From NCBI RefSeq assembly GCF_039545095.1, contig NZ_BAABRS010000005.1, positions 124,001-188,000 of the forward strand: DNA of 64,000 nt, read 5' to 3'. The stretch's first letter is position 1. Each line of letters begins with the position of its first letter. The notes under the pieces are model-generated. The model had not been told where the DNA came from. It saw only the letters and a program-made list of their open reading frames with translations, and made no database searches. The translations under genes were made by a program, and so were the position numbers. This document shows, in pieces, positions 42,649-62,031 of this stretch. This stretch comes from Fodinibius salicampi. GTDB lineage: Bacteria > Bacteroidota > Rhodothermia > Balneolales > Balneolaceae.

Positions 42649-42664
42649 CGTTTCACGTGAAACA
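42649..42664. promoter_or_regulatory. parS-like site 1, over the rsmG start codon
   Basis: CGTTTCACGTGAAACA matches the parS consensus TGTTTCACGTGAAACA at 15 of 16 bases; only the first differs. The central CACGTG contains the GTG start codon of rsmG (42657-42659). ParB bound here could also affect rsmG translation or transcription. Confidence 0.8.
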
Positions 42665-43286
42665 CTCTACAAAAAAACTGAATGTTTCACGTGAAACATT
42701 CAGCAATACCGATCAGCTATTAGAAAAGTACAAGCCAAAGATAGAAACCTATATAGATCGTCTTTTTTGGTGGAACAAGCGTATAAACCTTGTAAGTCGC
42801 GATGTTTCACGTGAAACAATACTTGAACATATTCGCCATTCCTTACTATTAGCTCAGTTTGAGTCATTTACCGAAAGCCAAATAATTGTCGATGCCGGTA
42901 CCGGTGGTGGGCTTCCAGGCCTTCCCCTTGCAATCACTCATCCCGAAAAAAGATTTATTCTTAATGATATTGTATCTAAAAAATGCATGGTTCTTAAGCA
43001 AATAGCCCGAAAACTAGCAATTAATAACACTGAGACTATTGATGTAACAATAAAAAATGTGCAGGTGCAAGACCCCTTTCTTCTGATATCTAAGCATGCA
43101 TTTAAAATTAATGACCTATACAAAATGACCGCCCATCTCCCTTGGTCTACTATGATCCTTTATAAAGGAGGAAACTTTAAATCAGAATTAGAGGGTATAG
43201 AAGAACCCCTTGACATTCAATCTATTGAGTTATCACCGGGCGGAGATTTCTATAGTGGAAAGGCGCTGATTATAATCAACAGGTAA
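42657..43286 (+). CDS. rsmG: 16S rRNA (guanine527-N7)-methyltransferase
   Basis: Methylates G527 of 16S rRNA using SAM. 209 residues from a GTG start; no upstream in-frame ATG or better alternative is visible. The SAM motif is DAGTGGGLPGLPLAI (about 81-95), followed by a C-terminal Rossmann domain. WWNKRINLVSRD is the N-terminal RsmG block. The peptide VSRET occurs twice (residues about 10-14 and 50-54) because two parS sites are embedded in the coding sequence. Transcribed with mnmG. No ParA or ParB gene follows, unlike in many bacteria. Confidence 0.93.
   Translation: MKHSTKKLNVSRETFSNTDQLLEKYKPKIETYIDRLFWWNKRINLVSRDVSRETILEHIRHSLLLAQFESFTESQIIVDAGTGGGLPGLPLAITHPEKRFILNDIVSKKCMVLKQIARKLAINNTETIDVTIKNVQVQDPFLLISKHAFKINDLYKMTAHLPWSTMILYKGGNFKSELEGIEEPLDIQSIELSPGGDFYSGKALIIINR
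42678..42703. promoter_or_regulatory. parS site 2, core of a 26-bp perfect palindrome inside rsmG
   Basis: Perfect consensus TGTTTCACGTGAAACA at 42683-42698. The palindrome extends to 26 bp with CTGAA / TTCAG arms. It encodes the first VSRET of RsmG. Confidence 0.9.
42803..42818. promoter_or_regulatory. parS site 3 inside rsmG
   Basis: Perfect consensus TGTTTCACGTGAAACA, 120 bp after site 2. It encodes the second VSRET of RsmG. The distance is a whole number of codons (40), so sites 2 and 3 lie in the same reading frame. Confidence 0.9.
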
Positions 43287-46293: not shown

Positions 46294-48750
46294 TTATACC
46301 GTGGAATCCTCTTCTTCATTCACTACACGAGTAACGGCACCGATTTTTCCTTCAGAACCGAGTCGCATAATTCGAACACCCTGGGTATTTCTTCCCATGG
46401 TCCGAATATCACCACAATTCATTCGGATTACTTTACCGCCTTCTGTTATGACCATCAAGTCATCTTTATCAGAAACTTCCTTAAGAGCAATTAGTTCACC
46501 GGTTTTCTTAGTGACCTTAAGAGTAATCACTCCTTTTCCGCCCCTGCTTTGCTCGCGATAATCCTCAACAAGTGATCGTTTTCCGTATCCATTTTCTGAA
46601 ATGGCAAGAACTGTAGCTTCATGGGTGTTTTTAACAACAACCATATCCACAAGTTCATTATTCTTATCCAGATCCATTCCCTTAACACCAGAAGTATTTC
46701 GCCCCATATCCCGAACTTCATCCTCATGGAAGCGGATGGCCCGTCCCTTTCTGTTAGCAAGGATAATATTGCTCTCGCCATTGGTAAGAGCGGCTTCAAG
46801 AAGCGCATCGCCCTCATTAATATTGATTGCAATAATTCCATCGCGGCGTGGACGACTATATGCTTCAAGGGTGGTTTTCTTAACCTTTCCTTCGCGAGTA
46901 GACATCATAATATAATTGTTATTGATGTACTCTTCGTCATCCAGTGTCTTAACAGGAACGAACGTCTTTATCGTATCATCCTTATCAATCTCAATCAGGT
47001 TTACAATGGCGCGTCCGCGTGCTGTTCGAGAGGCCTCAGGAATTTCATAAACTTTTAACCAGTAACACTGTCCCTTCTCGGTAAAGAAAAGAATATAATT
47101 ATGGTTCGTAGCCACAAACAGATGCTCAACGTATTCGTCATCTTTTGTGTTTGTGCCTTTCATTCCCTTACCGCCACGTTTCTGTCGGCGATATCCGCTT
47201 ACCGGCATTCGCTTGATAAACCCTTTATTGGAAATAGTAATAACCACATCTTCATCAGCGATCATATCTTCCACACTGAAGTCTTCCGCCGAGTGAACGA
47301 TTTGGGTGCGGCGCTCGTCACCGTACCGGTTTTGAATTTCAAGCAATTCATCCTTAATAATCGATTTCTGACGATCACGATTAGATAGGATATCCCGGTA
47401 ATCAGCAATTTTTTCAGCTATCTCACCGTACTCAAGCTCTACCTTATCTCTTTCAAGCCCCGTAAGTTTTTGCAAGCGCATATCCAGTATAGCTTTTGCC
47501 TGAATATCGGTCAGAGCAAATTTGCGACGGAGTGCCGCATTTGCCTCTTTTGGGCTGTCGGAAGCACGAATTGTTTTAATAACCTCATCCAGATCATCAA
47601 GTGCAATCTTAAGTCCTTCGAGGATATGGGCACGCGCTTCTGCCTGATCCAGATCGTATAGCGTGCGGCGAATTACAATTTCAATCCGGTGCTCAACGAA
47701 ATGATAAATTAGCTCCTTGAGGGGCATTACCTTCGGACGTCCCTTAACCAATGCAAGGCTAATGACACCAAACGTCGTTTGCATCTGTGTATACTTATAA
47801 AGCTGGTTAAGGACGATGCCGGCATTGGCATTTCGCTTCAACACCACCACAATACGCATACCATCGCGATCTGATTCATCGCGAATCTCAGAAATTTCGT
47901 CAATTTTTTCGTTCTGGGTGAGACGCGCAATCTTCTTAACAAGCGTCGTTTTATTTACCTGGTATGGAATTTCAGTAATAACGATTTGCTCACGTCCGCG
48001 CCGTAGTTCCTCAGTTGTACAACGGGCCCGGAGGGTTATCTTACCGCGTCCGGTTTCGTAGGCTTCCTTAACCCCGCCGTAACCATATATGATACCTCCG
48101 GTCGGGAAGTCGGGTGCAGAAATATGCTCCATCAGCCCCTTGCAATCGATGTCCGGATTCTCGATATAAGCAGTAATACCGTCAATGGTTTCGGTCAGGT
48201 TGTGGGGAGCCATATTGGTAGCCATTCCCACCGCAATACCTGAGGCCCCATTTATAATGAGGTTAGGCAACATACCCGGGAGTACTGTCGGCTCCTGAAG
48301 GGTATCGTCAAAGTTCGTCTGGTAATCTACGGTTTCCTTATTTATATCCGTTAGCATTTCTTCGGCAATACGCTCCATACGAACCTCTGTATAACGCATA
48401 GCCGCCGCAGAGTCACCATCAATGGAGCCAAAGTTTCCCTGCCCATCGACGAGCGGGTAGCGCAGGGAGAAGTCCTGCACCATCCGCACGATAGAATCAT
48501 ATACCGCAGAGTCACCATGCGGGTGATACTTACCGAGTACCTCACCTACAATACGGGCACTCTTTTTATAATTCCTGTTATGAAGCATGCCCAGTTCACT
48601 CATTCCGTATAAAATACGTCGGTGAACTGGTTTTAGACCATCCCGAACATCAGGTAGGGCCCGAGACACAATAACCGACATCGAATAATCGATATAGGCC
48701 GACTGCATCTCATCTTCTATTGCAATGGGTACAATTTTATCTCTAGCCAT
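46294..48750 (-). CDS. gyrA: DNA gyrase subunit A
   Basis: Breakage-reunion subunit of gyrase. 818 residues. The catalytic Tyr120 is in MRYTEVRM. The quinolone-determining region [10 protein letters not shown] has Ser81 and Asp85, the susceptible-type residues. The GyrA box QKRGGKG is near residue 530, and six-bladed C-terminal wrapping repeats (such as [25 protein letters not shown]) follow. gyrB lies upstream on the same strand with a 133-base gap. The two run codirectionally, probably as one unit. Confidence 0.98.
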
Positions 48751-48883
48751 GGATAATGTTTAGTGCGGTGTTAAAAATTTAGCTTCCTAAAATTTATTTC
48801 TGTACAAATAGATTATTAAAAGTGTTTAAGCTGAGAGCGGTAAAGTTCATTACTAAGCTCAAACACTTGTCAACCTGAGTATT

Positions 48884-50836
<1,953 letters not shown>

Positions 50837-59603: not shown

Positions 59604-60044
59604 CTATCTTTCCAAAACCAGAGTTACGGGACCATCATTATGTAATTGTACATCCATATAGGCCCCAAATTCTCCGGTTTCTATATTCAGATCACAATTA
59701 TTATTTATATAACGGACCATTTTATCATATAATTTCTTTGCTTTATCCGGTCCCGCCGCCTCAAAATAACTGGGCCGGTTACCCTGCTCATAATCACCAT
59801 ACAGCGTAAATTGAGGTACAATCAATATTTCTCCCTCAATATCCTGTACCGATAAATTCATTTTTCCTTCCGCATCATCAAACACTCTCAGCTTTAAAAT
59901 TTTATCAGATAACCACTTCATCTGCTGCTCAGTATCTTCTTCGTGTATCCCAACCAATAGCATTAAGCCGTCTTTTATGGATCCAATTTGCTCATTATTT
60001 ACCCAAACACTCGCTTCCGATACCCGCTGGAGAACAATTTTCAT
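59604..60044 (-). CDS. dtd: D-aminoacyl-tRNA deacylase
   Basis: Removes D-amino acids from mischarged tRNA. 146 residues from the ATG at 60044 (MKIVLQRVSEASVWV); a TTG two codons earlier is in frame but unnecessary. SQFTLYGDYEQGNRPSYFEAA-like block (here QFTLYGDY and GNRPSYFEAAGP) and the C-terminal NDGPVTLVLER with the Gly-cisPro-type GPVT are typical. It is upstream of the phosphomutase-like gene on the same strand. Its 5' end marks the edge of the candidate replication origin. Confidence 0.94.
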   Translation of the reverse strand: MKIVLQRVSEASVWVNNEQIGSIKDGLMLLVGIHEEDTEQQMKWLSDKILKLRVFDDAEGKMNLSVQDIEGEILIVPQFTLYGDYEQGNRPSYFEAAGPDKAKKLYDKMVRYINNNCDLNIETGEFGAYMDVQLHNDGPVTLVLER

Positions 60045-60059
60045 ATTCAATCATGTTTA

Positions 60060-60430
60060 TAACTATGTGGAAAAGTATGTGCATAACTTCTTCTCAAAAT
60101 AAAACAATTAAAACCAATAAAAATTCTCCACATCCATTAACATTCAATATTCATTATCCACAAGTTATACAGTTAAAAAGTACTGTATAAAACATTTTTT
60201 TCTTGACATTCAAATCGTTGTGGATTGTGGATAACCAGATTTTAATCCCGCTAAGTCCTTGTTTTTTATGGGCTAATTATCCACAAAATTATCCACAATT
60301 GATAATAGCCTCGTAAATTAATGTGTACCAAAAAGTTTTCCACTTTTCCACAGCACCTACTATGTACTACAAATATTTATTATCTAATACTATTAATGTT
60401 TTCCGGTGGATAATGTGGAGAAATATTTCT
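60060..60430. other. Candidate chromosomal replication origin (oriC): DnaA-box cluster
   Basis: Perfect DnaA boxes TTATCCACA are at 60154-60162, 60277-60285 and 60289-60297, and one reversed at 60226-60234. Boxes with one mismatch are at 60066-60074, 60078-60086, 60124-60132, 60344-60352, 60405-60413 and 60414-60422. AT-rich stretches at about 60087-60123 and 60370-60400 could unwind. The region is intergenic, and the flanking genes diverge (dtd left, YfiT-like right), so forks would run with them. dnaA is not in the window. Confidence 0.8.
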
Positions 60431-60502
60431 TAAAAAGGAGATCCAAGTTGGCTATATTCATATCAGTTAAATCAAAACCACTTAGTCTTCTCAAGTAAAT
60501 AA

Positions 60503-61027
60503 ATGGATAAAAGCAGGTATCCTATCGGGTCGTACCAGGCAAAGAAAACCATCAGTACGCGAGATGTCGCAAAGTGGATTGATGATATTCAGGAGCTCCC
60601 TGTAAAATTACGATCAGAAGTTTCGTATCTTACCGATGAGCAGCTCGATACGGCCTATCGAGAAGACGGATGGACCGTACGACAGCTGGTACATCACATA
60701 GCCGACAGTCATATTAACTCCTATACCCGGTTCAAATTGGCACTGACGGAAGATCGTCCTTCGATTAAACCCTATTTGCAGGATGAATGGGCTAATTTAC
60801 CGGATACTTCGATGCCGGTAGCTGTTTCCCTTCAGCTGATTGAGTCATTGCATAAACGTTGGGTCGTATTATTAAAATCACTGGATGAAGATCAACTTAA
60901 CCGTGAACTTATTCACCCGGAGTCGGGGACGTTGGTCTTAAAAAGCATGATTGGTCAATATGCCTGGCACGGCAAACACCATTTGGCTCACATCGTTAAT
61001 CTCAAAGAGAAAAAAGACTGGAACTGA
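60503..61027 (+). CDS. YfiT/DinB-family metal-dependent protein (bacillithiol transferase-like)
   Basis: 174 residues. A DinB four-helix fold with the YfiT opening RYPIGSYQ (residues 5-12), the histidine blocks VHHIADSHINSY (about 63-74) and WHGKHHLAHI (about 154-163), which form a three-His metal site. The closest characterised relatives are the YfiT / BstA proteins, some of which transfer bacillithiol. Its TGA overlaps the ATG of purM by one base (TGATG), which suggests translational coupling. It is the first gene to the right of the candidate origin. AAGGAG occurs upstream. Confidence 0.85.
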   Translation: MDKSRYPIGSYQAKKTISTRDVAKWIDDIQELPVKLRSEVSYLTDEQLDTAYREDGWTVRQLVHHIADSHINSYTRFKLALTEDRPSIKPYLQDEWANLPDTSMPVAVSLQLIESLHKRWVVLLKSLDEDQLNRELIHPESGTLVLKSMIGQYAWHGKHHLAHIVNLKEKKDWN

Positions 61028-62031
61028 TGTCTAAAAAGAAATTTACCTACAAAGACGCCGGCGTTGATATTGAAGCCGGGGAAGAAATGGTCGAATCAAT
61101 CAAAGGAATGGTCAAAGAAACCCACAGCAATGCTGTATTGAGCAATATTGGTGGATTTGGTGGATTCTTTCGACCCGACTTGCAAGACTATGAGGATCCT
61201 GTTTTTGTAAGCAGTGTAGATGGGGTGGGCACCAAGCTTATTGTCGCTTTTAAAACTGAAAAGTACCATACCGTAGGTCAGGATCTTGTAAATCATTGCA
61301 TAAATGATATAGCTGTCTGTGGTGCTGATCCCCTATTCTTTCTGGACTATTTTTCGACCGGAAAGCTAAAGCAGGAAGTCGGTTACCAGGTAGTAAAAGG
61401 CTTTTCTGTCGCCTGTAAAGAAAATGGAGTGGCCCTTATTGGCGGGGAAACGGCCGAAATGCCCGATATCTACAGCGAAGGAGAATTTGATCTGGCCGGT
61501 ACCATTGTGGGAATGGTTGATCGGGAGAAAATAATTGACGGAAAGCAGATAGAATCAGGTAATGTACTGTTGGGTTTTCCCAGTACGGGTCTGCATACCA
61601 ACGGTTACTCCCTGGCTCGAAAGGTACTCTTCTCAGAATATGATGTAAGCAATCACGTAGATGAACTGGGGGCCACAGTCGGGGAGGCAATGCTGGCAGT
61701 TCACAAATCCTATCTGCCTGTTATAAGATCACTAAGGAATGAAAATGGAGTAAATGGATTCTCCCATATAACCGGTGGGGGAATTATGGGAAACACAAAA
61801 CGGATAGTACCGGATAAACTAACTATTCAGTTAGATTGGAAAGGATGGGAACGCCCCCCCATTTTTAAACTTATCAAAGACCTGGGAAATGTACCCGAAG
61901 ATGATATGCGGGCGACTTTTAACCTGGGGATTGGGCTTATAGCAGTAGTAGATGAAAAATCTGTGGAGAAGGTAAAAGAGATAGCTTCAGAGATGGACGA
62001 AGAAGTTATAGAGATCGGAAAAATAGCATAG
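61027..62031 (+). CDS. purM: Phosphoribosylformylglycinamidine cyclo-ligase (AIR synthetase)
   Basis: Fifth step of purine synthesis, converting FGAM to AIR with ATP. 334 residues of the PurM/ThiL fold: YKDAGVDIEAG, VSSVDGVGTKLIVA (metal/ATP), HCINDIAVCGADPLFFLDY, LIGGETAEMPDIY, FPSTGLHTNGYSLAR and HITGGGIMGNTKRIVP. All main blocks are present and length is normal. The start ATG overlaps the stop of the YfiT-like gene by one base. Confidence 0.96.
   Translation: MSKKKFTYKDAGVDIEAGEEMVESIKGMVKETHSNAVLSNIGGFGGFFRPDLQDYEDPVFVSSVDGVGTKLIVAFKTEKYHTVGQDLVNHCINDIAVCGADPLFFLDYFSTGKLKQEVGYQVVKGFSVACKENGVALIGGETAEMPDIYSEGEFDLAGTIVGMVDREKIIDGKQIESGNVLLGFPSTGLHTNGYSLARKVLFSEYDVSNHVDELGATVGEAMLAVHKSYLPVIRSLRNENGVNGFSHITGGGIMGNTKRIVPDKLTIQLDWKGWERPPIFKLIKDLGNVPEDDMRATFNLGIGLIAVVDEKSVEKVKEIASEMDEEVIEIGKIA

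Follow-up and report, generated by a model that had tools for sequence, protein, structure and literature searches.

The window, namely the whole 64-kb stretch of DNA that was analysed, corresponds to C5:124001–188000, C5 being one of the contigs of an 11-contig, 3.94-Mb assembly. It contains a 458-bp intergenic gap placed between two diverging genes, dtd on the minus strand, with its start codon at 60042–60044, and a DinB_2-superfamily gene on the plus strand. AT content is high throughout the gap, at 0.62–0.78 in 50-bp steps versus 0.48–0.64 in the adjoining coding steps, and the GC content of the 371 bp from 60060 to 60430 is 28.8%. The features of this region and its surroundings are listed below, with conservation given for a genus set of 12 members that includes the genome under study.

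60045–60502, no strand: intergenic region with the proposed oriC; boxes at 60054–60422, cumulative GC-skew minimum at 60404
60054–60062, minus: weak DnaA box TTATAAACA, two mismatches; ≤2 mismatches in 12/12 genus members, own included
60066–60074, minus: DnaA box TTTTCCACA, one mismatch; perfect in 8/12 genus members, ≤1 mismatch in 12/12
60078–60086, minus: DnaA box TTATGCACA, one mismatch; ≤2 mismatches in 12/12 genus members
60124–60132, plus: DnaA box TTCTCCACA, one mismatch; identical in 12/12 genus members
60154–60162, plus: DnaA box TTATCCACA, perfect; ≤1 mismatch in 12/12 genus members
60203–60208, plus: TTGACA, –35-like hexamer inside the origin, putative promoter; in 11/12 genus members, aligned by eye
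from 60219, minus: two-mismatch DnaA site, the sole one of 13 positions not within two mismatches in all 12 genus members
60226–60234, minus: DnaA box TTATCCACA, perfect; ≤2 mismatches in 12/12 genus members
60277–60285, plus: DnaA box TTATCCACA, perfect; ≤1 mismatch in 12/12 genus members
60289–60297, plus: DnaA box TTATCCACA, perfect; ≤1 mismatch in 12/12 genus members
60336–60344, plus: DnaA box TTTTCCACT, two mismatches, leads the tandem pair of the candidate unwinding core; ≤2 mismatches in 12/12
60344–60352, plus: DnaA box TTTTCCACA, one mismatch, second of the tandem pair, sharing one base with the first; ≤1 mismatch in 12/12
60353–60362, plus: 4-nt spacer GCAC and CTACTA, i.e., two DnaA-trios (3′-GAT-5′) on the opposite strand
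60357–60404, no strand: likely DNA-unwinding element, judged by AT content and genus conservation; starts with CTACTATGTACTACAAATATT
60405–60413, minus: DnaA box TTATCCACC, one mismatch, right-hand pair; ≤1 mismatch in 11/12 genus members
60414–60422, minus: DnaA box TTCTCCACA, one mismatch, right-hand pair; identical in 12/12 genus members
59604–60044, minus: dtd, D-aminoacyl-tRNA deacylase, left neighbour (PF02580, E 6.4e-59)
60503–61027, plus: DinB_2-superfamily gene, right neighbour (PF12867, E 5.9e-20)
61027–62031, plus: purM-like gene (AIR synthase families, PF00586/PF02769), conserved right-hand landmark
42650–42817, no strand: mnmG-rsmG junction (end of mnmG, start of rsmG) with three parS-type palindromes (GTTTCACGTGAAAC), by pattern match

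The recount of the DnaA boxes between 60060 and 60430 gave four perfect TTATCCACA boxes (60154+, 60226–, 60277+ and 60289+) and six with one mismatch (60066–, 60078–, 60124+, 60344+, 60405– and 60414–), in exact agreement with the original prediction of four and six in an AT-rich intergenic stretch between diverging genes, the latter being the gap 60045–60502. Three sites with two mismatches (60054–, 60219– and 60336+) add to these ten. The random occurrence of four perfect boxes in about 360 bp had been considered very unlikely, and in fact 5000 dinucleotide shuffles of the 371-bp stretch produced at most three boxes with ≤1 mismatch and at most two perfect boxes. The remainder of the 64-kb window presented 24 boxes with ≤1 mismatch, never more than two per 371 bp. 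Moreover, the 3.94-Mb assembly has 85 perfect boxes, of which four fall within 144 bp at the window cluster, the tightest such group, and the search for a denser cluster elsewhere, proposed beforehand as a check, revealed no other place in the assembly with four perfect boxes so close together. Next among these 85 came a three-box group spanning 270 bp in the upstream region of dnaA, followed by isolated pairs. Similarly, a genome search with the pattern TTWTCCACA, covering TTATCCACA and TTTTCCACA, placed six boxes in the window cluster versus groups of three at C2:491235–491288 and C1:438894–438989, among the 100 matches listed out of 146. Both three-box groups are located far from the origin and from dnaA, in positive-skew parts of their contigs, and possibly correspond to DnaA-regulated genes or titration sites.

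The distribution of GC skew pointed to the same place. A cumulative-skew minimum at this spot had been named beforehand as a finding that would support the origin, and in the contiguous stretch C5:24001–199585 the minimum was observed at C5:184404, i.e., position 60404 of the window, within the cluster. Genome-wide skew was assessed from sampled stretches, amounting to about 1.08 Mb besides the window and drawn from contigs C1–C10, rather than from a whole-genome plot. It was positive in all sampled stretches of C2 (8/8), C4 (4/4) and C6 (2/2), and negative on C3 in 34 of 36 5-kb steps from nine stretches and in three of three further stretches, the two positive steps lying at 20–30 kb; the small contigs C7–C10 had mixed skew. 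Contig C1 was positive in 8/8 20-kb samples up to 720 kb and negative in 11/11 from 800 kb, and an opposite, terminus-like turn is therefore placed between C1:720 and 800 kb. Considering these sampled contigs, the only sustained minus-to-plus turn seen within a contig is that of the cluster. To its right, the 15 kb of remaining contig had a weak skew (+0.088, –0.008, +0.011 and +0.148), which was counted against the origin reading. With the small contigs left out, we infer replication arms of about 2.06 and 1.82 Mb and thus a balanced chromosome.

The assembly contains exactly three sites matching the parS pattern applied, and all of them are found at 42650–42817 of the window, about 17 kb from the cluster. 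Sites of this type near the origin are frequent in bacteria, though not a universal feature. Because several bacteria have their oriC close to mnmG, the mnmG (gidA)-rsmG junction, where these parS-type sites are located, was considered as an alternative origin and set aside, having no box cluster. The gyrA and gyrB genes adjoin each other on the minus strand in the same part of the window (46294–50815), 9–14 kb from the origin.

The box array is preserved among relatives to a degree that its spacers are not. The genome appears to group with Fodinibius/Aliifodinibius, since dtd relatives bearing those names are 69–83% identical. In the genus set, 12 of the 13 box positions stayed within two mismatches in all 12 members, and the alignment of 60052–60430 required no gaps in 10 of the 12, one in another and 11 in the remaining one. 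The mean column conservation was 0.957 for the boxes versus 0.788 for the other columns, and with the box mask shifted circularly, none of 377 placements attained the observed value, the best reaching 0.946. Therefore, an array of about twelve DnaA boxes is fixed in position. Between the boxes, the TTGACA hexamer at 60203–60208 might belong to a promoter driving transcription through the origin, and the partly conserved CTAA-N4-TTG-TTTTT near 60250–60266 may admit an IHF-like reading, for which no claim is made here.

The arrangement extends to the whole order. The dtd gene was present in 54 of the 58 genomes searched, the one under study among them, and 52 of its loci had at least 450 bp upstream, those of G035 and G013 being omitted due to contig ends. 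At least three boxes with ≤1 mismatch were found upstream of dtd in 51 of the 52 loci and at least five in 47, with a mean of 7.3, while on the downstream side, taken as control, none of the 52 had three or more and the mean was 0.17. The sole exception, G055, carries a dtd locus without boxes and was counted against the origin reading. On the side of the boxes away from dtd, purM was found within 1.5 kb in 50/52 loci, and in 15/52 a DinB-like gene was inserted between oriC and purM. Assembly breaks were also noticed in or close to the origin region, as the contigs of G035 and G013 stop 200 or 18 bp beyond dtd and C5 itself stops 15 kb beyond the origin.

The skew of large-contig relatives was inspected at both candidate loci, and a flip at dtd was found in four of the five. 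In G002, G009 and G029, dtd marked a minus-to-plus change in skew, and the sign was the same on both sides of dnaA; G002 also had one stray positive-skew stretch at 536 kb, which weighs against the origin reading. G030 presented a minus-to-plus flip at dtd, supported by a single right-hand sample, and a noisy minus-to-plus change across dnaA as well. In G034, the unclear case, the skew was near zero, with no immediate flip at dtd (993 kb: –0.016). For G043, a single contig of 4.29 Mb, the dnaA match at 277–1587 lay in negative skew, and a local minus-to-plus turn was seen near 270 kb, where the dtd cluster lies, along with several stray sign changes elsewhere. The irregularities of G030, G034 and G043 likewise weigh against the origin reading.

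Within the array, the candidate unwinding core is placed at its right-hand part, where the AT content over 60350–60399, beside the boxes, is 0.76, a value describing composition only. In PMC8287927, the basal unwinding system (BUS) is defined as a box or tandem boxes, a spacer and at least three trios with a middle A, 3′-GAT-5′ being the commonest. Tandem boxes, the better of them within two mismatches as a BUS demands, are found at 60336 (two mismatches) and 60344 (one mismatch), and these are followed by GCAC and then CTACTA, two exact trios in phase. As the conserved tandem boxes are followed by a 4-nt spacer and only two exact trios, against the three or more (after a spacer of 0–16 bp) of the published rule, the window core falls short of that rule. 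The looser NAN trio rule accommodated boxes 60124, 60277 and 60289 on the plus strand and 60078 and 60405 on the minus strand, and is unselective. The stretch CTACTATGTACTACAAATATT (60357–60377) had every column kept in at least 11 of the 12 genus members. A similar sequence, GTACTATTATGTACTGTC, stands upstream of dnaA (L002, about 828–845), either as a shared element or by chance. A minus-strand core, formed by boxes 60414/60405 and then TTAATAGTATTA, agrees with the loose NAN rule and was retained only as a less likely reading, because its trios vary between genus members, whereas the plus-strand CTACTA is mostly kept, as judged by eye.

The pattern box-N4-CTACTA had one match in each of 20 of the 58 genomes, own included, and 19 of these 20 were placed 294–325 bp upstream of dtd, the exception being G038; the reversed control pattern had nine matches in the 58 genomes. 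The exact 18-base core was absent from the other 38, a further point counted against the origin reading. Among 80 genomes sampled from the class in a second set, which overlaps the first set of 58, the core pattern was found in 24 genomes versus 18 reversed-pattern matches overall. Inside the order, 14 of 16 core matches adjoined dtd, with G038 and G086 as exceptions. Outside it, the core was found in 8 of 41 genomes, 0/8 beside dtd, and as the reversed control had six matches in the same 41 genomes, these eight are not clearly above chance. Consequently, the evidence resides in the placement of the core beside dtd, not in the bare number of matches. The same 18-base match to box-N4-CTACTA recurs in three genomes from other orders of the class (G088, G104 and G116), in none of them next to dtd, and this identity may be due to chance.

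A box-N4-CTA arrangement was located 294–325 bp from dtd in 39 of the 52 loci, and runs of exact trios within 16 bp of a same-strand box comprised at least two trios in 27/52 and at least one in 51/52, whereas the control stretch 600–1050 bp from dtd had a single-trio run in 1/52 and none longer, a comparison that tests box and trio jointly, since the control stretch is poor in boxes. Runs of three or four exact CTA trios were present in 3/52 relatives (G032, G027 and G014).

The original interpretation as an oriC thus gains support from the skew minimum in the cluster, the parS-type sites 17 kb off and the order-wide conservation. On this sequence evidence, this Fodinibius-like member of the Balneolaceae very probably replicates its chromosome from a single origin (oriC) at 60054–60422, an origin of the ordinary kind, newly located. 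By analogy with known systems, box binding, opening and helicase loading would all take place at the array. DnaA would fill the boxes, and from the tandem pair at 60336–60352 a DnaA oligomer would extend over the 4-nt spacer to engage the strand facing CTACTA. Opening of the AT-rich stretch 60357–60404 would follow, the inward-facing pair at 60405–60422 would bound the bubble, and helicases loaded at the opened stretch would allow two forks to depart.

The remaining question concerns the dnaA locus. As previously claimed, dnaA is not adjacent to the cluster: its single match is on contig C3 (from C3:37463 on), and the cluster is on C5. Three boxes on the same strand lie upstream of this gene (L002:755–1024 = C3:37140–37409), and the comparison of 30 family loci, taken from 57 genomes with a match, revealed two or three perfect minus-strand boxes upstream of dnaA in all of them. 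Their geometry was nearly invariable, the near two boxes being 97–99 bp apart in 30/30 loci and the far box, perfect or with one mismatch, being 162–164 bp further out (163 in 26/30). A conserved TTTGACA-type motif was observed by eye, in part of the alignment, in the interval separating the box at –159 from the one at –61. The simplest reading of this locus is an autoregulated dnaA promoter, and autoregulation is most likely the role of its conserved boxes.

A different role for these boxes was proposed, in which replication initiates at the window array and the three rigidly spaced boxes upstream of dnaA, besides forming a promoter operator, take part in initiation timing, by titration or by DnaA reactivation or inactivation. 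The 97–99/162–164 bp geometry kept in 30/30 loci is, in our judgement, stiffer than simple repression needs, but plain autoregulation already accounts for boxes at the dnaA promoter, with the TTTGACA-type motif between them, and such two-site control is considered unlikely. Its fuller form, in which Balneolaceae initiation would depend on two separate rigid DnaA arrays, namely a dtd-purM twelve-box orisome with a trio element remodelled in Fodinibius to CTACTA-TG-TACTAC and a dnaA three-box array (163/98 bp) as timing or titration partner beyond autoregulation, is speculative and distinctly unlikely.

Far less probable is that the true origin lies at dnaA (C3, about 37.1–37.5 kb), with the window cluster as a secondary DnaA-binding locus. 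The default indicator gene for oriC is dnaA, adjusted by lineage, according to PMC10225481, and this reading would accommodate the three perfect boxes in 270 bp, the near-constant spacing of two or three perfect boxes in 30/30 loci and the sign change of the G030 samples across dnaA. It is contradicted by the cumulative skew of C3, which keeps falling past dnaA without a turn, and by G002, G009 and G029, in which the same sign is found on both sides of dnaA and opposite signs across dtd. Moreover, box-N4-CTACTA or box-N4-CTA was found upstream of dnaA in 0/30 loci, on either strand.

DnaA titration sites, such as datA, exist in E. coli, and the dense boxes alone would fit equally a datA-like site near, not at, the origin. 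This reading is nonetheless highly improbable given the skew minimum inside the cluster, the trio-like core together with the order-wide positional conservation and the lack of a second such cluster within the 64-kb window. Chance or AT-rich composition, suggested by the 71% AT of the stretch, is dismissed, since 0/5000 shuffles reached ten boxes and the boxes are conserved while the spacers drift.

The very probable oriC between dtd and purM fixes the replication origin for an order in which dnaA misleads, as in G043, where the dnaA match starts at base 277 and the cluster and local turn are found at about 270 kb. Correct origins matter for metagenome growth-rate estimates, strand-bias studies and shuttle vectors. 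Moreover, order-wide origins with fixed boxes and drifting spacers offer a natural experiment on the limits of orisome geometry and on DnaA-trio degradation. Among the papers listed on Balneolales, Fodinibius, Bacteroidetes and Rhodothermus marinus origins, on DnaA-trios and on the deacylase, none dealt with this origin, and a DoriC prediction for a relative may well exist; in PMC6323995, DnaA-trios are described as added to the DoriC records.

Compared with known systems, the window origin resembles the DnaA-dependent bacterial oriC of the DoriC/Ori-Finder type in its box cluster, AT-rich gap, GC-skew minimum and nearby parS-type sites. Unlike the usual bacterial oriC, it is beside neither dnaA nor mnmG, its flanks being dtd and purM, in some genomes with an intervening DinB-like gene. 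An autoregulated dnaA promoter with DnaA boxes matches the C3 locus, whereas the window cluster is flanked instead by dtd and a DinB-like gene. The closest likeness of the core is to the BUS of Bacillus subtilis, which shares tandem boxes, a 4-nt spacer and CTA repeats (3′-GAT-5′ on the other strand), the trio being the element for which PMC10721633 gives a structure of DnaA capturing two bases per trio. Unlike that BUS, the window core has two in-phase exact trios, followed by the genus-conserved TGTACTACAAATATT.
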